A stretch of 64,000 nucleotides of DNA, taken from contig NZ_SOBH01000002.1 in assembly GCF_004365635.1 (NCBI RefSeq), forward strand, positions 62,001-126,000. The letters run 5' to 3'. This DNA comes from Litoreibacter halocynthiae (GTDB taxonomy: Bacteria > Pseudomonadota > Alphaproteobacteria > Rhodobacterales > Rhodobacteraceae). The translations under genes and the position numbers were made by a program. The notes beneath the pieces were generated by a model. That model saw only the letters and a list, made by a program, of their open reading frames with translations. It did not search any database and was not told the DNA's origin. Positions 59,396-64,000 of this stretch are shown piece by piece. How positions within the stretch are numbered: the stretch's first letter is position 1; every line of letters begins with the position of its first letter.

Positions 59396-60900
59396 TCAGG
59401 AATGTCACTCTCTTGTTCAAGTGAGCAACGGGAGATTGGACATGGGATGGGTGATGATGAGCGAGCGCGAGTTAAATCGCATAGAGGTTTTGGCGCAGGT
59501 TGATGATGGCCGGCTGAGCGTTGAGAACGGCGCCAACATGCTGGATGTGACGAAGCGCCAGATGTTCAGACTGCTGAAGCGATATCGAACTGACGGCGCG
59601 CCAGCGATCCGTCACCGTGCGCGCGGCAAGACCCCAAACAACAAGATTCATAAGGCAAAGCGCGACTTTGCGTTGGCGATAGTCAAAGAGAACTATGCGG
59701 ATTTTGGCCCGACGCTCGCTGCTGAGATGTTAGTGGAACATCACGGCTTCAAAGTCTCACGAGAGACGCTGCGCAAGTGGATGCAGGAAGATGGTATCTG
59801 GCTGTCGCGCAAACAACGGCGCACGTTCCACCAACCTCGATTGCGCCGGGAATGTTACGGCGAGTTGATCCAGATCGACGGGTCTGACCATCGCTGGTTC
59901 GAGGATCGGGCAGATCCCTGCACCCTTCTCGTTTTCATTGACGATGCAACCAGCATGTTGATGGAACTTCAGTTTGTGCAATCGGAAAGCACCTTCAGCT
60001 ACTTCGGCGCGTTGGAACGCTACTTGCTCAAACATGGCCGGCCGGTCGCCTTTTACAGCGACAAGCACTCGGTCTTCCGCGTGGCAAAGCCCAATGAACA
60101 CATGACCGGAATGACCCAATTTGGGCGTGCCCTGGCAGAGCTAAACGTAGAAATTCTATGTGCAAACAGCAGCCAAGCCAAAGGTCGTGTCGAGCGTGCA
60201 AATCGCACGTTGCAGGATCGGTTGGTGAAAGAGCTACGCCTCGCCGGCGTTTCGAACATGGATGACGGCAACGCATTCCTGTCGGGGTTCATGAAGCGCT
60301 TCAACACCAAGTTTGCAAAGGCTCCTGCCAAGCCCGACAACCTGCATCGCGCTCTGAACATCGAACCTGAACGCCTAGCGGAGGTGTTCTGCCTGCGCGA
60401 CAAACGCTATGTCACGAAGGATCTGACGCTCAAGTATGATCGCAAACGCATCAAGCTTGAGGTCAACGATCTGACGCGCGGCCTCGTCGGTAAATACATC
60501 GATGTCTACGAGATGGCAGACGGACGCATTCAAGTTCGCGCCAAAGGCGTTGCCCTGCCCCATATGATCCTGAACCCAGAGCGCAGGATAACGCATGCCG
60601 CGATCACAGAGAACAAACGTCTCGGTGCTGTGCTGGCCCACATCAAAGACGAACAGGACAAAGCCTCTCTGACGGTGAAGGTCAAACCTGTGAGCGCCAA
60701 GAACGGGTATAAGAAGACAGGACGCCGTTCACCCGGACGCCCTTCGAAGATGGACGCGTATTACGCCCAAAAACGCGCGGACCGTGAAGCCCGCGCAGCC
60801 AGCCAGACCTCCGATGTGTGAGGTCTACACTCTGTCAGGCTGCGCTACCGTTGGCGCCCTTGGTGACACTTCTGCTTTGCGCAATCGCTGACATTTCAGG
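59396..60900 (+). mobile_element. ISNCY-type (IS1202-like) insertion sequence
   Basis: About 1.5 kb holding one transposase. Candidate ends carry imperfect inverted motifs CAGGAATGTCACTC (from 59397) and, on the right and reversed, CCTGAAATGTCAGC (to about 60900), with an extra AAGTGTCA-like repeat inside the right end. Exact boundaries and a target-site duplication could not be fixed by eye. Confidence 0.6.
59442..60821 (+). CDS. ISNCY-family DDE transposase
   Basis: 459 residues from ATG 59442 (MGWVMMSERELNRIEVLAQV; GGGAG eight bases upstream). N-terminal helix-turn-helix (VENGANMLDVTKRQMFRLLK). DDE core: Asp in ELIQIDGSDHRWFED, Asp in VAFYSDKHSVF, Glu in KGRVERANRTLQDRLVKEL. A basic C-terminus (KKTGRRSPGRPSK) follows. 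It looks intact, so the element may be active. Confidence 0.9.
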   Translation: MGWVMMSERELNRIEVLAQVDDGRLSVENGANMLDVTKRQMFRLLKRYRTDGAPAIRHRARGKTPNNKIHKAKRDFALAIVKENYADFGPTLAAEMLVEHHGFKVSRETLRKWMQEDGIWLSRKQRRTFHQPRLRRECYGELIQIDGSDHRWFEDRADPCTLLVFIDDATSMLMELQFVQSESTFSYFGALERYLLKHGRPVAFYSDKHSVFRVAKPNEHMTGMTQFGRALAELNVEILCANSSQAKGRVERANRTLQDRLVKELRLAGVSNMDDGNAFLSGFMKRFNTKFAKAPAKPDNLHRALNIEPERLAEVFCLRDKRYVTKDLTLKYDRKRIKLEVNDLTRGLVGKYIDVYEMADGRIQVRAKGVALPHMILNPERRITHAAITENKRLGAVLAHIKDEQDKASLTVKVKPVSAKNGYKKTGRRSPGRPSKMDAYYAQKRADREARAASQTSDV

Positions 60901-60907
60901 TTGGCGT

Positions 60908-61033
60908 TTACACTTCGGTAACAGTATGAAATTGTCTTTGCGCGGGAGTATAATTTGAGTTGATAATCTCTCTATCAACTTCATCGACAAATCTTAGAAG
61001 GTCGATTTCTGAGAGTTTTCCTAGTTCACTCAC
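60908..61033 (-). pseudogene. N-terminal fragment of the IS-split gene, coupled to thyX
   Basis: 41 codons from GTG 61033: [20 protein letters not shown] then EIINSNYTPAQRQFHTVT, ending at a TAA that lies at the IS right edge. The GTG overlaps the thyX stop by four bases (GTGA), the pattern of a translationally coupled operon partner, so this is a genuine gene start. Joined to the 58597-59394 part it would make a protein of roughly 310 residues. Confidence 0.55.
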
Positions 61034-61935
61034 CCAATAACCCCCTGAAACTCCCGCCATTCCCCCTTGCTCATGCCGGAGGTTTCCTGTGTGACCTCCT
61101 CGCCTTTCAGCATCCGGCGGACGCAGTCGACGGCTTTGCCGCTCAGTTGCGCGCCGCCCAAGCGGTAGTCCTCGAAGGCGGAGTATGCGGCGGGGACCCA
61201 GTCGGCGACGACGTTACAAATCGCGTCGGCGTAAACCCTTATTTCATACTGCGCATGGCTATCTGCACGCAGGCGCAGGAAGTGAAACAGATTGTGGAGG
61301 TCCACCTTCCAGTACCATTGCGTATAGATATTCGCAGGCAGGTTCATGCGGGCCAGTTCGCGGGCGAGGCCGTCTTGGCCGTCGTCGGAGATCATCGCCT
61401 CGTAGTTGTCGTAAGCGCGCGTGCTGTCGGCTTTGAGGATTTCCAAGACGCGGGCGGCCTCCTCCCCTTCAAGGATTTTGCCGCGGCCTTGGTTGTTCAC
61501 CACGGACTGCGCGTTGATATGCTCGGGCGCGGGGATGTAGAACTCGCGGTCGAGGATCGAATAGCGGGCGGAGTATTCGTTGACGTTGGCGGTCCGGTGG
61601 CGGATCCACTGGCGGGCGACGAAGACGGGCAGTTTGACGTGCAGCTTGATCTCGCACATCTCGAAGGGCGTGGAGTGCCAGTGGCGCATCAGGTAGCGGA
61701 TCAGGCCTTCGTCGTTTTGCACCGACTTGGTGCCCTTGCCGTAAGAGACGCGGGCGGCTTGGCAGATGGCGCTGTCGTCGCCCATGTAGTCAATGACGCG
61801 GATGAAGCCGTGGTCGAGCACCTCGTGGGCGGTGTAGAGATGCGCCTCCATCCCCGGCACGGTGGCGCGCATGGTGGTGTTTTGCTGGGACCGCGCGTCG
61901 GCGATTTCCTGAGCTTGATCTGGGGAAATGGGCAT
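61030..61935 (-). CDS. thyX: Flavin-dependent thymidylate synthase
   Basis: 301 residues. The ThyX signature [15 protein letters not shown] (RHRxxSxNExSxRYS type) is complete; also [20 protein letters not shown] and [18 protein letters not shown]. It makes dTMP with FAD, NADPH and methylene-THF. Upstream residues before [10 protein letters not shown] form a longer N-terminus than in short ThyX forms. The former downstream partner is the split HEPN-like gene. Confidence 0.96.
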
Positions 61936-62186: not shown

Positions 62187-63140
62187 ATGATCCTTAATTC
62201 CGCCGTGAAGGCCTTTGGTATTCTTTCCGTTTCCGCGCTGATTGCGTGCGGCGGTTCTGGCGACAATCCGGTGACGGGTGGCACGGTTGATACCGACGTC
62301 GATCCGACGGACCCGAATGTCGTCACCGGCCAGAAGTTTGCCTTCGACAGATCGGTCGGACTGGTGGCGAACAGCATCGAGTTTCGCGAGAATGTCGCCG
62401 GTGACCCGTCGGATGACCAGCTGGTGATCAACAATATCCCGTTTGACACGACGACCGGCGAATATGACCGCACGGGTACCCTACCCAATGGCTGGGGCCT
62501 TTATCAAAACACCGAACGCAATCTTGAGGGCCGCCTTCAGTATTTTGCGGTGTTCAACCAATCCGCGACGGCCGACGTTGAAGGTGGCGTCGCGGCGTCC
62601 CCGCAATATCGCGGCTCCATCGGGAACGCCGGCGCAGTGATCCGGCGTTCCGGCACGCCAGTGTCGCTGCCTGTGGCTGGCATTTTCAACTATACCGGCT
62701 CCTATTCGGGCATTCGCGAGATCGACAATGATCTGGACACCACGGGCACCGTTCCGGGGATCACTTTGGTTACCGGCGACGCACTTGTGCGCGTTGACTA
62801 TGGTGACTTCGACGTCACTGGTGACATCGTCGGCTCCATTTCCAATCGCAACGTCTACGACGTGAACGGGACCTTCTTGGGAAGCCTGTCCAATGTCAGC
62901 CTTGCAGAGGCGCTTATCGACCGCCCGACCCAGACTATTAACGAAAGCGGTGCAAGCTCGCAAGACGGCCTGCTTAGCGGCACATGGGAGGGCGTGTTCG
63001 GCGGTCCGACCGGGAATGAAATCGCTGCCTATGTGATTCTCAACGGCACCACCCCCTCCACCCCCGGCGCAACGCCTACCGACCCGGTCATTCCGGGTGT
63101 AGATGTGCGCGAGCTGGGTGTTTTGCTGGTTGCCCAATAA
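62187..63140 (+). CDS. TbpB-barrel-like surface lipoprotein
   Basis: 317 residues. Signal peptide with lipobox ALIAC (Cys about residue 21), then a Gly/Thr/Asp linker. The C-terminal half resembles the eight-stranded beta-barrel of transferrin-binding protein B and related Slam cargo: LQYFAVFNQSATADVEGGVA, and at the end GLLSGTWEGVFGGPTGNEIA followed by AYVILNG. There are no transferrin-receptor genes; ligand unknown (haem, iron complex or other). It lies 25 bases before the Slam-like gene on the same strand, the arrangement known for Slam cargo. Confidence 0.75.
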   Translation: MILNSAVKAFGILSVSALIACGGSGDNPVTGGTVDTDVDPTDPNVVTGQKFAFDRSVGLVANSIEFRENVAGDPSDDQLVINNIPFDTTTGEYDRTGTLPNGWGLYQNTERNLEGRLQYFAVFNQSATADVEGGVAASPQYRGSIGNAGAVIRRSGTPVSLPVAGIFNYTGSYSGIREIDNDLDTTGTVPGITLVTGDALVRVDYGDFDVTGDIVGSISNRNVYDVNGTFLGSLSNVSLAEALIDRPTQTINESGASSQDGLLSGTWEGVFGGPTGNEIAAYVILNGTTPSTPGATPTDPVIPGVDVRELGVLLVAQ

Positions 63141-63165
63141 AATCAGGCAGTGCCTTGCTCGGGGG

Positions 63166-64000
63166 ATGCGGGCGCTGCTGGTTTCACAAGTACTTGTTTT
63201 GGCGGGCACCGCGGGCCAGACCGCGCCCACGGTGATTTCCATTGCCGAAAGCCGTGACCTAGGCTTTCGTCTTCTGCTGCAAAAACAACCGCTTGCCGCC
63301 AAGGAAATTGCTCTGGCCTTGCTTCAGCGCGATGCCGAGGACGTAAAGGCGCTGCTTATCCTATCCCGTGCAGAACGGCTTCTGGATAACAGCCAGCAAG
63401 CCAAACATGCAGGAAAGCGCGCGTGGAAAGCGGCAACGACCTCCGAAGACCGCTTCACGGCAGCGATGCTTACCGCGCAGGCGATTTCCTCCTCCGGCAA
63501 CAAGATCGGGGCCCAGTTGTGGCTGAGACGCGCGGCCGAGGTCGCACCGAACGACAAGTTGAAATCCACCGCTGTGCGAGATTTGCGCCATGTACGCGGT
63601 ACCAGCCCCCTCGCCCTGTCCCTTGATGTGTCAGTCGCACCATCCTCCAACATCAACAACGGCTCCAAATCGGACTCGATAGAAATTTTCGGCCTGCCAT
63701 TTACGCTGAGTGGCGACGCACAGGCCTTGTCCGGCGTTGAGTATTCGCTCGGCGCATCCCTGTCCTACAAACTGCCGCAAAGCGGCGCTTGGAGTTTAAC
63801 TGCCGGTGCCGCAGTCGACGCGAAACACTATACGTTGTCGTCGAGCGCCAAGGCCACTGCCCCCAATGTGTCCGGTTCCGACTATGCCTTTCACCAACTC
63901 CAGTTCAGCCTGTCAGCAAGCAGGCCTGATGCGGACCGGAAAGGCGCGACGAGCCTGTATGTTAAGACGGGGCAAAACTGGTATGGCGGCTCTGTCCTGA
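63166..64000 (+). CDS. Slam-like (DUF560) outer-membrane protein, 3' truncated by window
   Basis: 278 visible residues from ATG 63166, open to the window edge. Signal peptide MRALLVSQVLVLAGTAGQTA, then a helical TPR-like region (about 21-145: AKEIALALLQRDAEDVKALL, AQLWLRRAAEVAPND), then beta strands starting with LALSLDVSVAPSSNINNGSK, the segment that opens the beta-barrel in surface lipoprotein assembly modulators. Such proteins move lipoproteins across the outer membrane. The barrel's remainder lies beyond the window. Confidence 0.72.
   Translation, partial: MRALLVSQVLVLAGTAGQTAPTVISIAESRDLGFRLLLQKQPLAAKEIALALLQRDAEDVKALLILSRAERLLDNSQQAKHAGKRAWKAATTSEDRFTAAMLTAQAISSSGNKIGAQLWLRRAAEVAPNDKLKSTAVRDLRHVRGTSPLALSLDVSVAPSSNINNGSKSDSIEIFGLPFTLSGDAQALSGVEYSLGASLSYKLPQSGAWSLTAGAAVDAKHYTLSSSAKATAPNVSGSDYAFHQLQFSLSASRPDADRKGATSLYVKTGQNWYGGSVL

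Follow-up and report, generated by a model that had tools for sequence, protein, structure and literature searches.

A Slam-type translocon gene and its predicted lipoprotein cargo form a linked, probably exchanged pair between thyX and gloA in Litoreibacter halocynthiae and related bacteria

In the accessible part of Hooda et al. 2017 (PMC5449769), 185 of 353 homologues of Slam, the outer-membrane protein of type 11 secretion systems (T11SS), are encoded beside a gene with a lipobox. For cluster 3 of these systems, the accessible text of Grossman et al. 2025 (PMC12282271) gives 0.21 predicted cargo per Slam protein by sequence methods and TbpB_B_D at 8 of 145 loci, together with a barrel lipoprotein in 10 of 11 syntenic loci; cargo of sub-threshold similarity is one of the three explanations offered there. 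Both this kind of system and its syntenic locus type in marine Rhodobacteraceae/Roseobacteraceae have thereby been in print since 2025, and the description ‘under-described’ used in the first-pass annotation of the DNA studied here has to be given up. In the open-licence literature that we searched, PMC12282271 was the only paper to hold both DUF1194 and T11SS; Litoreibacter is absent from its main text, and no paper was found that brings together Litoreibacter, a lipoprotein and a secretion system. Within the same literature we found no display assay for this Slam lineage and, among the matches listed, nothing on point about exchange or co-evolution of Slam pairs.

The window analysed here is a stretch of 64,000 nucleotides from Litoreibacter halocynthiae (G000:C2:62001-126000), part of a genome of 3.68 Mb in 9 contigs that is 99.99% complete. 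The named genomes with the closest Slam proteins found are Litoreibacter ascidiaceicola DSM 100566 (98% identical) and L. meonggei DSM 29466 (54%), in agreement with the initial description of a Roseobacter-type genome. Close to the right-hand end of the window, an open reading frame at 62187-63140 (+) encodes a 317-aa lipoprotein that begins, in translation, with MILNSAVKAFGILSVSALIACGG. This is the predicted Slam cargo, and a family profile built without the window protein matches it at E 1.5e-58. Its lipobox, LIAC (residues 18-21; 62238-62249, +), places the predicted acylation site at Cys21, a Cys that is present in 98% of 115 aligned cargos. A scan of the locus revealed no promoter-like site, and terminator-like sites were at chance level.

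Used as the sole query in Pfam, NCBIfam and PDB sequence searches, the lipoprotein returned nothing useful. It matched neither PF01298 (TbpB_B_D) nor NCBIfam slam_lipo, a result that weakens its case for those curated models only, and its one Pfam match, to Bflower (E 0.015), lay below the cut-off of that model and was dropped. Among the 115 aligned members of the cargo family, TbpB_B_D matched 14, FHBP_C 18 and slam_lipo 35 (E up to 0.01); when ten members were scanned singly, TbpB_B_D and slam_lipo each matched three (E up to 0.05), all under the curated cut-offs. We therefore compared profiles using hhalign, with a TbpB_B_D reference alignment of 14 stretches from Pseudomonadota outside the own family (14 of 24 fetched loci were aligned). 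The cargo family profile matched this alignment with 96% probability (E 4.6e-9) over window-protein residues 156-286, and GTWEGVFGGPTGNEIA, which forms residues 265-280, was paired with the conserved GxFFGxxAxELGG of TbpB barrels. The Slam profile, run as a control against the same alignment, reached 0.1% probability. A PDB search with the cargo profile gave borderline matches, the best being factor H-binding protein (E 0.025). By family profile, then, the C-terminal region of the lipoprotein (residues 156 to 317; 62652-63137, +) is a predicted TbpB-type barrel, a link that runs through its relatives. In a profile search with PF01298, the own genome gave no match and neither did the control genomes. 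Another genome of the family, G305, carries ten TbpB_B_D matches spread over several contigs, and the two other matching family genomes in the sample have one each.

The downstream gene starts at ATG 63166 (+), 25 bases past the lipoprotein stop at 63140. It is cut by the window end at 64000 and continues to G000:C2:126518 (window-equivalent 64518), forming a complete open reading frame of 450 aa counted from 63166. An earlier in-frame ATG at 63103 would make this gene overlap the lipoprotein gene; in several relatives (e.g. L007, L010, L013, L015), the first possible Slam start lies just 3' of the cargo stop. The full protein matches PF04575 (SlipAM/DUF560) at 30.2 bits, above the cut-off of 22, over residues 152-431 (model positions 4-269 of 288), which puts the start of the barrel at 63619-64000 (+) within the window. 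A periplasmic TPR-like domain precedes it, at approximately 63223-63585 (+): the single protein gives a weak TPR match (E 0.23), and positions 20-75 of a profile of 20 Slam relatives match solved consensus TPR proteins at E 1.2e-8. A C-terminal aromatic residue is typical of outer-membrane barrels, and a C-terminal Phe is found in 20 of 20 aligned Slam proteins. The reading in the first-pass annotation of a Slam-type translocon beside a TbpB-barrel-type lipoprotein is thus upheld, for the barrel by way of the family profile, as are the lipobox, the 25-base gap, the TPR-like helices and the segment VAPSSNINNGS on which it drew. It had further proposed that the contig be extended past 64000 and the full protein searched with HMMs for DUF560/Slam and the TbpB barrel. 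Extension and profile searches identified the full Slam protein and, through its family profile, the cargo; the lipoprotein alone missed TbpB_B_D.

To what extent is this arrangement regular? Among 61 relatives (own genome included), a Slam match was present in 26 and a cargo match in 15, with all 15 cargos adjoining a Slam match. In a sample of 296 family genomes, with about one genome per genus, the Slam profile matched in 182. We analysed 120 loci, namely the best Slam matches listed, which were chosen by Slam rank alone with one locus per genome. Left out were loci too near a contig end (G204, G133), with an internal stop (G078, G281) or partial (G101, G117, G316, G150), second copies in G189 and G305, and genomes ranked below G245. 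Apart from G000 itself, 61 of the 182 genomes with a Slam match lie outside the 120 loci, many of them with weak matches. G000, likewise outside the 120, takes the place of the truncated L160 in the trees and composition counts, which again gives 114 cargos.

A strict lipobox test was passed by 85 loci, and the cargo model derived from these identified a cargo, encoded on the same strand as Slam, at 114 of the 120. A lipobox motif was found by script in 110 of these 114 cargo relatives and by eye in two more; as background, 40 of 1319 other open frames of at least 250 codons, genes or not, pass nearly the same test. In 114 of 114 cases no more than 160 bases separate the cargo stop from the first Slam residue downstream that the profile matches, and Slam without cargo at the site was seen at 6 of 120 loci. 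Nearly all Slam proteins examined thus retain a partner, although most of these partners have diverged beyond what curated domain models recognise. To judge by family and gene order, the 120 loci probably belong to cluster 3 and, provided that they do, cargo at 114 of 120 loci supports the explanation by sub-threshold cargo, bearing on a question left open by the 2025 paper (PMC12282271). Weak cargo-like reading frames (E 9e-6 to 9e-4) were also seen elsewhere, at L194 6621-7194 (G014 C4), L198 6546-7173 (G020) and L135 4401-4992 (G305). These lie on the strand opposite to Slam with no ThyX or GloA nearby, and possibly represent a second, divergently arranged kind of locus.

The pair occupies a recurrent chromosomal site. 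In the window its left border gene is ThyX (61030-61935, -; PF02511 Thy1, 191 bits), and across the 120 loci the flanks include ThyX in 88, GloA in 110 and DUF1194 in 84 (strict count, E under 1e-40). A looser count for DUF1194, 103 of 120, was rejected as inflated by open frames overlapping GloA that had entered the model. The order divergent ThyX, cargo, Slam, GloA holds at 79 of 120 loci. For comparison we used 25 Slam-less sites, 19 from genomes of other genera (among 20 listed of the 114 genomes without a match, the twentieth being G003, of the own genus) and 6 from the own genus. These sites were located via GloA, so that GloA is there by choice. ThyX is present at 21 of them, DUF1194 at 19, and cargo and Slam at none (cargo with Slam at 114/120 versus 0/25; Fisher 9.5e-23). 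ThyX, GloA and DUF1194 thus persist where the pair is missing and are therefore markers of the site. Since cargo goes with Slam and DUF1194 does not (84/120 versus 19/25, Fisher p 0.63), the location itself appears to account for the co-occurrence of thymidylate synthase, glyoxalase and DUF1194. This carries a warning, as associations read from gene neighbourhood between this lineage and thymidylate synthesis, glyoxalase or DUF1194 may just reflect the position of the pair. The same figures bear on the possibility, raised by Grossman et al. 2025 (PMC12282271), that the true Slam substrate is the neighbouring vWA-like DUF1194 protein, with the lipoprotein secondary: DUF1194 is found at 102 of 145 cluster-3 loci in the accessible text of that paper, yet in our data it is as frequent where Slam is missing.

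Within the own genus, 18 of 21 same-genus genomes were examined (G010, G012 and G019, at 57-82% complete, were left out). Cargo and Slam lie between ThyX and DUF817 or GloA in 11 of the 18, Slam stands alone at the site in one (G014 C3, in addition to the six loci above), and ThyX is followed directly by DUF817, GloA and DUF1194 in six, including G020, whose Slam gene is elsewhere. In the window locus DUF817 is present and GloA has no DUF1194 gene next to it; altogether, at four of the 11 cargo-Slam loci of the genus no DUF1194 gene was found in the stretch examined, which argues against DUF1194 as the substrate; the other 7 have DUF1194 genes. At the place 3' of GloA, the window locus has a Flavodoxin_5 gene (L001 8005-8565). 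A partial DUF1194-like match in this locus (L001 7648-8005, E 2.7e-25) was discounted on inspection as the same artefact of frames overlapping GloA, since it lies across that gene in a different frame. The only DUF1194 matches in the own genome are on another contig, at G000:C1:65356-65934 (L066 about 1400-1980), where three short pieces lie in different frames; this DUF1194 gene looks broken, and the genes downstream of it resemble sdhC/sdhD. To the left of the site, between the ThrRS gene and ThyX, the window carries a transposase-like gene (59421-60821, +; 466 aa, HTH_32/HTH_29), with no match in the other genus loci compared, some of which do not reach ThrRS.

We then asked how far the genes at the site share a history. 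Tree distances for Slam and cargo are correlated at rho 0.58 (n=114), a value that none of 499 permutations reached (maximum 0.11), whereas Slam tracks the flanks weakly, with rho 0.07 for ThyX (reached by 47 of 499 permutations), 0.09 for GloA (18/499) and 0.11 for DUF1194 (9/499). ThyX and GloA agree weakly with one another (rho 0.25) and are therefore imperfect measures of descent. The agreement of Slam and cargo survives when Slam is trimmed to its last 430 residues and the cargo is halved (rho 0.55-0.59), with 0.42-0.55 for the Slam TPR or barrel alone, so that out-of-frame reading of the gene overlap is not the source of the signal. Close linkage favours joint transfer, and could by itself raise tree agreement, though the genes just outside the pair share it weakly. 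As for DUF1194, its weak agreement with Slam is the one feature of the trees that speaks for it as a substrate; this falls to -0.01 with the looser DUF1194 set and in either case lies far under the value for cargo. Taken with its frequency at Slam-less sites and the genus loci that do without it, we regard this as a very improbable explanation.

A structural character of the cargo follows Slam in the same way. In 40 of 114 cargos (e.g. L072, L073, L127), the chain continues past the last barrel strand into a C-terminal tail that contains two Cys, which in these proteins are the only ones besides the lipidated Cys. Tail type changes 8-9 times on Slam trees (8 against a shuffle mean of 33.3), compared with 24-29 times on DUF1194 trees, 25 times on the GloA tree (mean 30.9, minimum 25) and 25 times on the ThyX tree (mean 25.5), on which the distribution of cargo types is nearly random, and less so on GloA. 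As the Slam and cargo trees agree but track the flanks weakly, matched pairs look to have been exchanged at a fixed site.

The pair might instead be old and not exchanged at all, having evolved fast in place and been lost in some lineages. Surface proteins do evolve fast, and presence or absence at one site fits repeated loss too, so the comparison has to be made between pair and flanks in individual genomes. Between L. meonggei (G011) and the window genome, identity is high in ThyX (99%), DUF817 (94%) and GloA (95%) and falls to 54% in Slam and 41% in cargo; for G016 the values are 88%, 84% and 92% versus 28% and 27%. At silent sites, G011 differs by 0.15 in ThyX and 0.32 in GloA, compared with 0.68 in Slam and 0.58 in cargo, and G002 and G011 together span 0.14-0.15 synonymous differences per site in ThyX, 0.32-0.46 in GloA/DUF817 and 0.58-0.74 in Slam/cargo, a gap that speaks against evolution in place. 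The nearest relative, G009, keeps a pair that is 98-99% identical at the same position, with silent values of 0.19 and 0.26 versus 0.13-0.18 in the flanks, as expected without exchange. The contrast is modest for G001, and for G013, G007, G005, G017 and G016 the flank values (0.34-0.62) are close to those of the pair (0.60-0.79), and both are near saturation in several relatives. Silent-site support for exchange is therefore clear in few species pairs (G002, G011), modest in most others and absent for G009. Across 83 genomes, however, the median Slam identity is 29-30% in each ThyX identity band, from 60-70% to at least 85%, which, together with the near-random distribution of cargo types on the ThyX tree, makes change in place with loss rather unlikely. 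Matched cargo-Slam pairs have probably been exchanged together at one fixed chromosomal site.

What might such a cargo do? A haemophilin-type haemophore uses a His haem ligand. The mature window cargo has no His, no Met and no Cys other than the lipidated one; no column in the cargo family reaches 50% His, and 30 of 114 cargos are without any His. TbpB and the haemophilins pass their ligands to TonB-dependent receptors (in part PMC8406197, in its accessible text). In a whole-genome profile search, the own genome, 99.99% complete, gave no match to the receptor barrel PF00593 or the plug PF07715, both of which match in three of the 14 control genomes (including E. coli and Caulobacter). Receptor barrels are about equally frequent across the 296 family genomes whether Slam is present (106 of 182) or not (66 of 114; odds ratio 1.01, p 1.0), a cross-table that assumes that the Slam and receptor searches drew the same 296 genomes; 47 of the 114 cargo-bearing genomes have no TonB-dependent receptor match. 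These data weigh on the alternative that the cargo is a nutrient-capture lipoprotein for haem, a metal or a cofactor, handing its ligand to an outer-membrane transporter in the manner of TbpB or the haemophilins. Its C-terminal barrel does belong to the TbpB-type family, iron uptake is a common function of verified cargo, and nickel or cofactor uptake has been considered for T11SS (PMC12282271, accessible text). Nevertheless, with no TonB receptor here and Slam independent of such receptors, TbpB- or haemophilin-style uptake is unlikely in this genome, and we consider nutrient capture improbable. The first-pass annotation, having seen no transferrin receptor or haemophilin genes, had suggested a different ligand; the whole-genome result agrees, and a different use of the cargo is likely. 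Because no TonB-dependent receptor was found, the cargo is most likely, mainly by exclusion, a variable binding protein exposed at the surface, where it would serve as an adhesin or a shield, and not a TonB co-receptor.

Taken together, these analyses make it probable that the locus is a type 11 secretion (Slam) cassette in which cargo and Slam form one inherited unit, probably exchanged, with an adhesin or shield as the likely cargo. To judge by its lipobox, the lipoprotein would be exported by Sec, lipidated at Cys21 and transported to the outer membrane. There, by analogy with the Slam family, the TPR domain and DUF560 barrel of Slam would recognise the C-terminal TbpB-type barrel of the cargo and move the cargo to the cell surface. 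That the two genes are nearly always adjacent and diverge together would reflect their inheritance as a unit, which genome comparison places, present or absent, between ThyX and GloA/DUF817, and which has probably been exchanged there; once displayed, the cargo would act as a variable surface binding protein and not as a co-receptor for a TonB-dependent transporter. A broader reading, which we offer tentatively and with some doubt, is that the thyX-gloA interval in Rhodobacteraceae/Roseobacteraceae serves as a fixed place for exchanging surface identity, at which matched, mutually specific lipoprotein-translocon pairs are lost, gained and replaced together, without TonB-dependent receptors. 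If so, close relatives would acquire different surfaces and, as no TonB receptors are needed, attachment, or recognition by phage, grazers or hosts, would drive selection, and not nutrient uptake. Should pairs be exchanged as units, cargo swaps between natural pairs would provide a large test set for cargo choice by Slam.

How does the locus compare with known systems? Like TbpB, haemophilin and factor H-binding protein, the window cargo family has a C-terminal barrel. Unlike TbpB, the window cargo is 317 aa long and has one barrel region in the profile match, not two lobes each with a barrel; it differs from a haemophilin-type haemophore in lacking His in the mature protein and any conserved His in the family, and from the nutrient piracy of both in that no TonB-dependent receptor was found in its genome. 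With the pairs described in the accessible text of Hooda et al. 2017 (PMC5449769), it shares a Slam N-terminal domain and DUF560 barrel beside a lipobox gene whose product has a C-terminal eight-stranded barrel, the window barrel being predicted from sequence; the pairs tested there came from Moraxella, Haemophilus, Pasteurella and Neisseria. It resembles most fully the marine cluster 3 T11SS locus (PMC12282271, accessible text), which belongs to the same bacterial families, Rhodobacteraceae/Roseobacteraceae, and comprises ThyX, an SPII lipoprotein of 282-375 aa with a C-terminal barrel, DUF560, GloA and DUF1194, although the window locus departs from this order by including DUF817 and lacking a DUF1194 gene next to GloA. 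That paper, as far as its accessible text goes, treats ThyX, GloA and DUF1194 as co-occurring functions, whereas here they are markers of a site, and it gives 0.21 predicted cargo per outer-membrane protein, compared with cargo at 114 of 120 loci here. What the present analysis adds is thus a near-constant partner, a likely neutral role of the flanking genes, a pair whose two members diverge together and have probably been exchanged, and its independence from TonB receptors.
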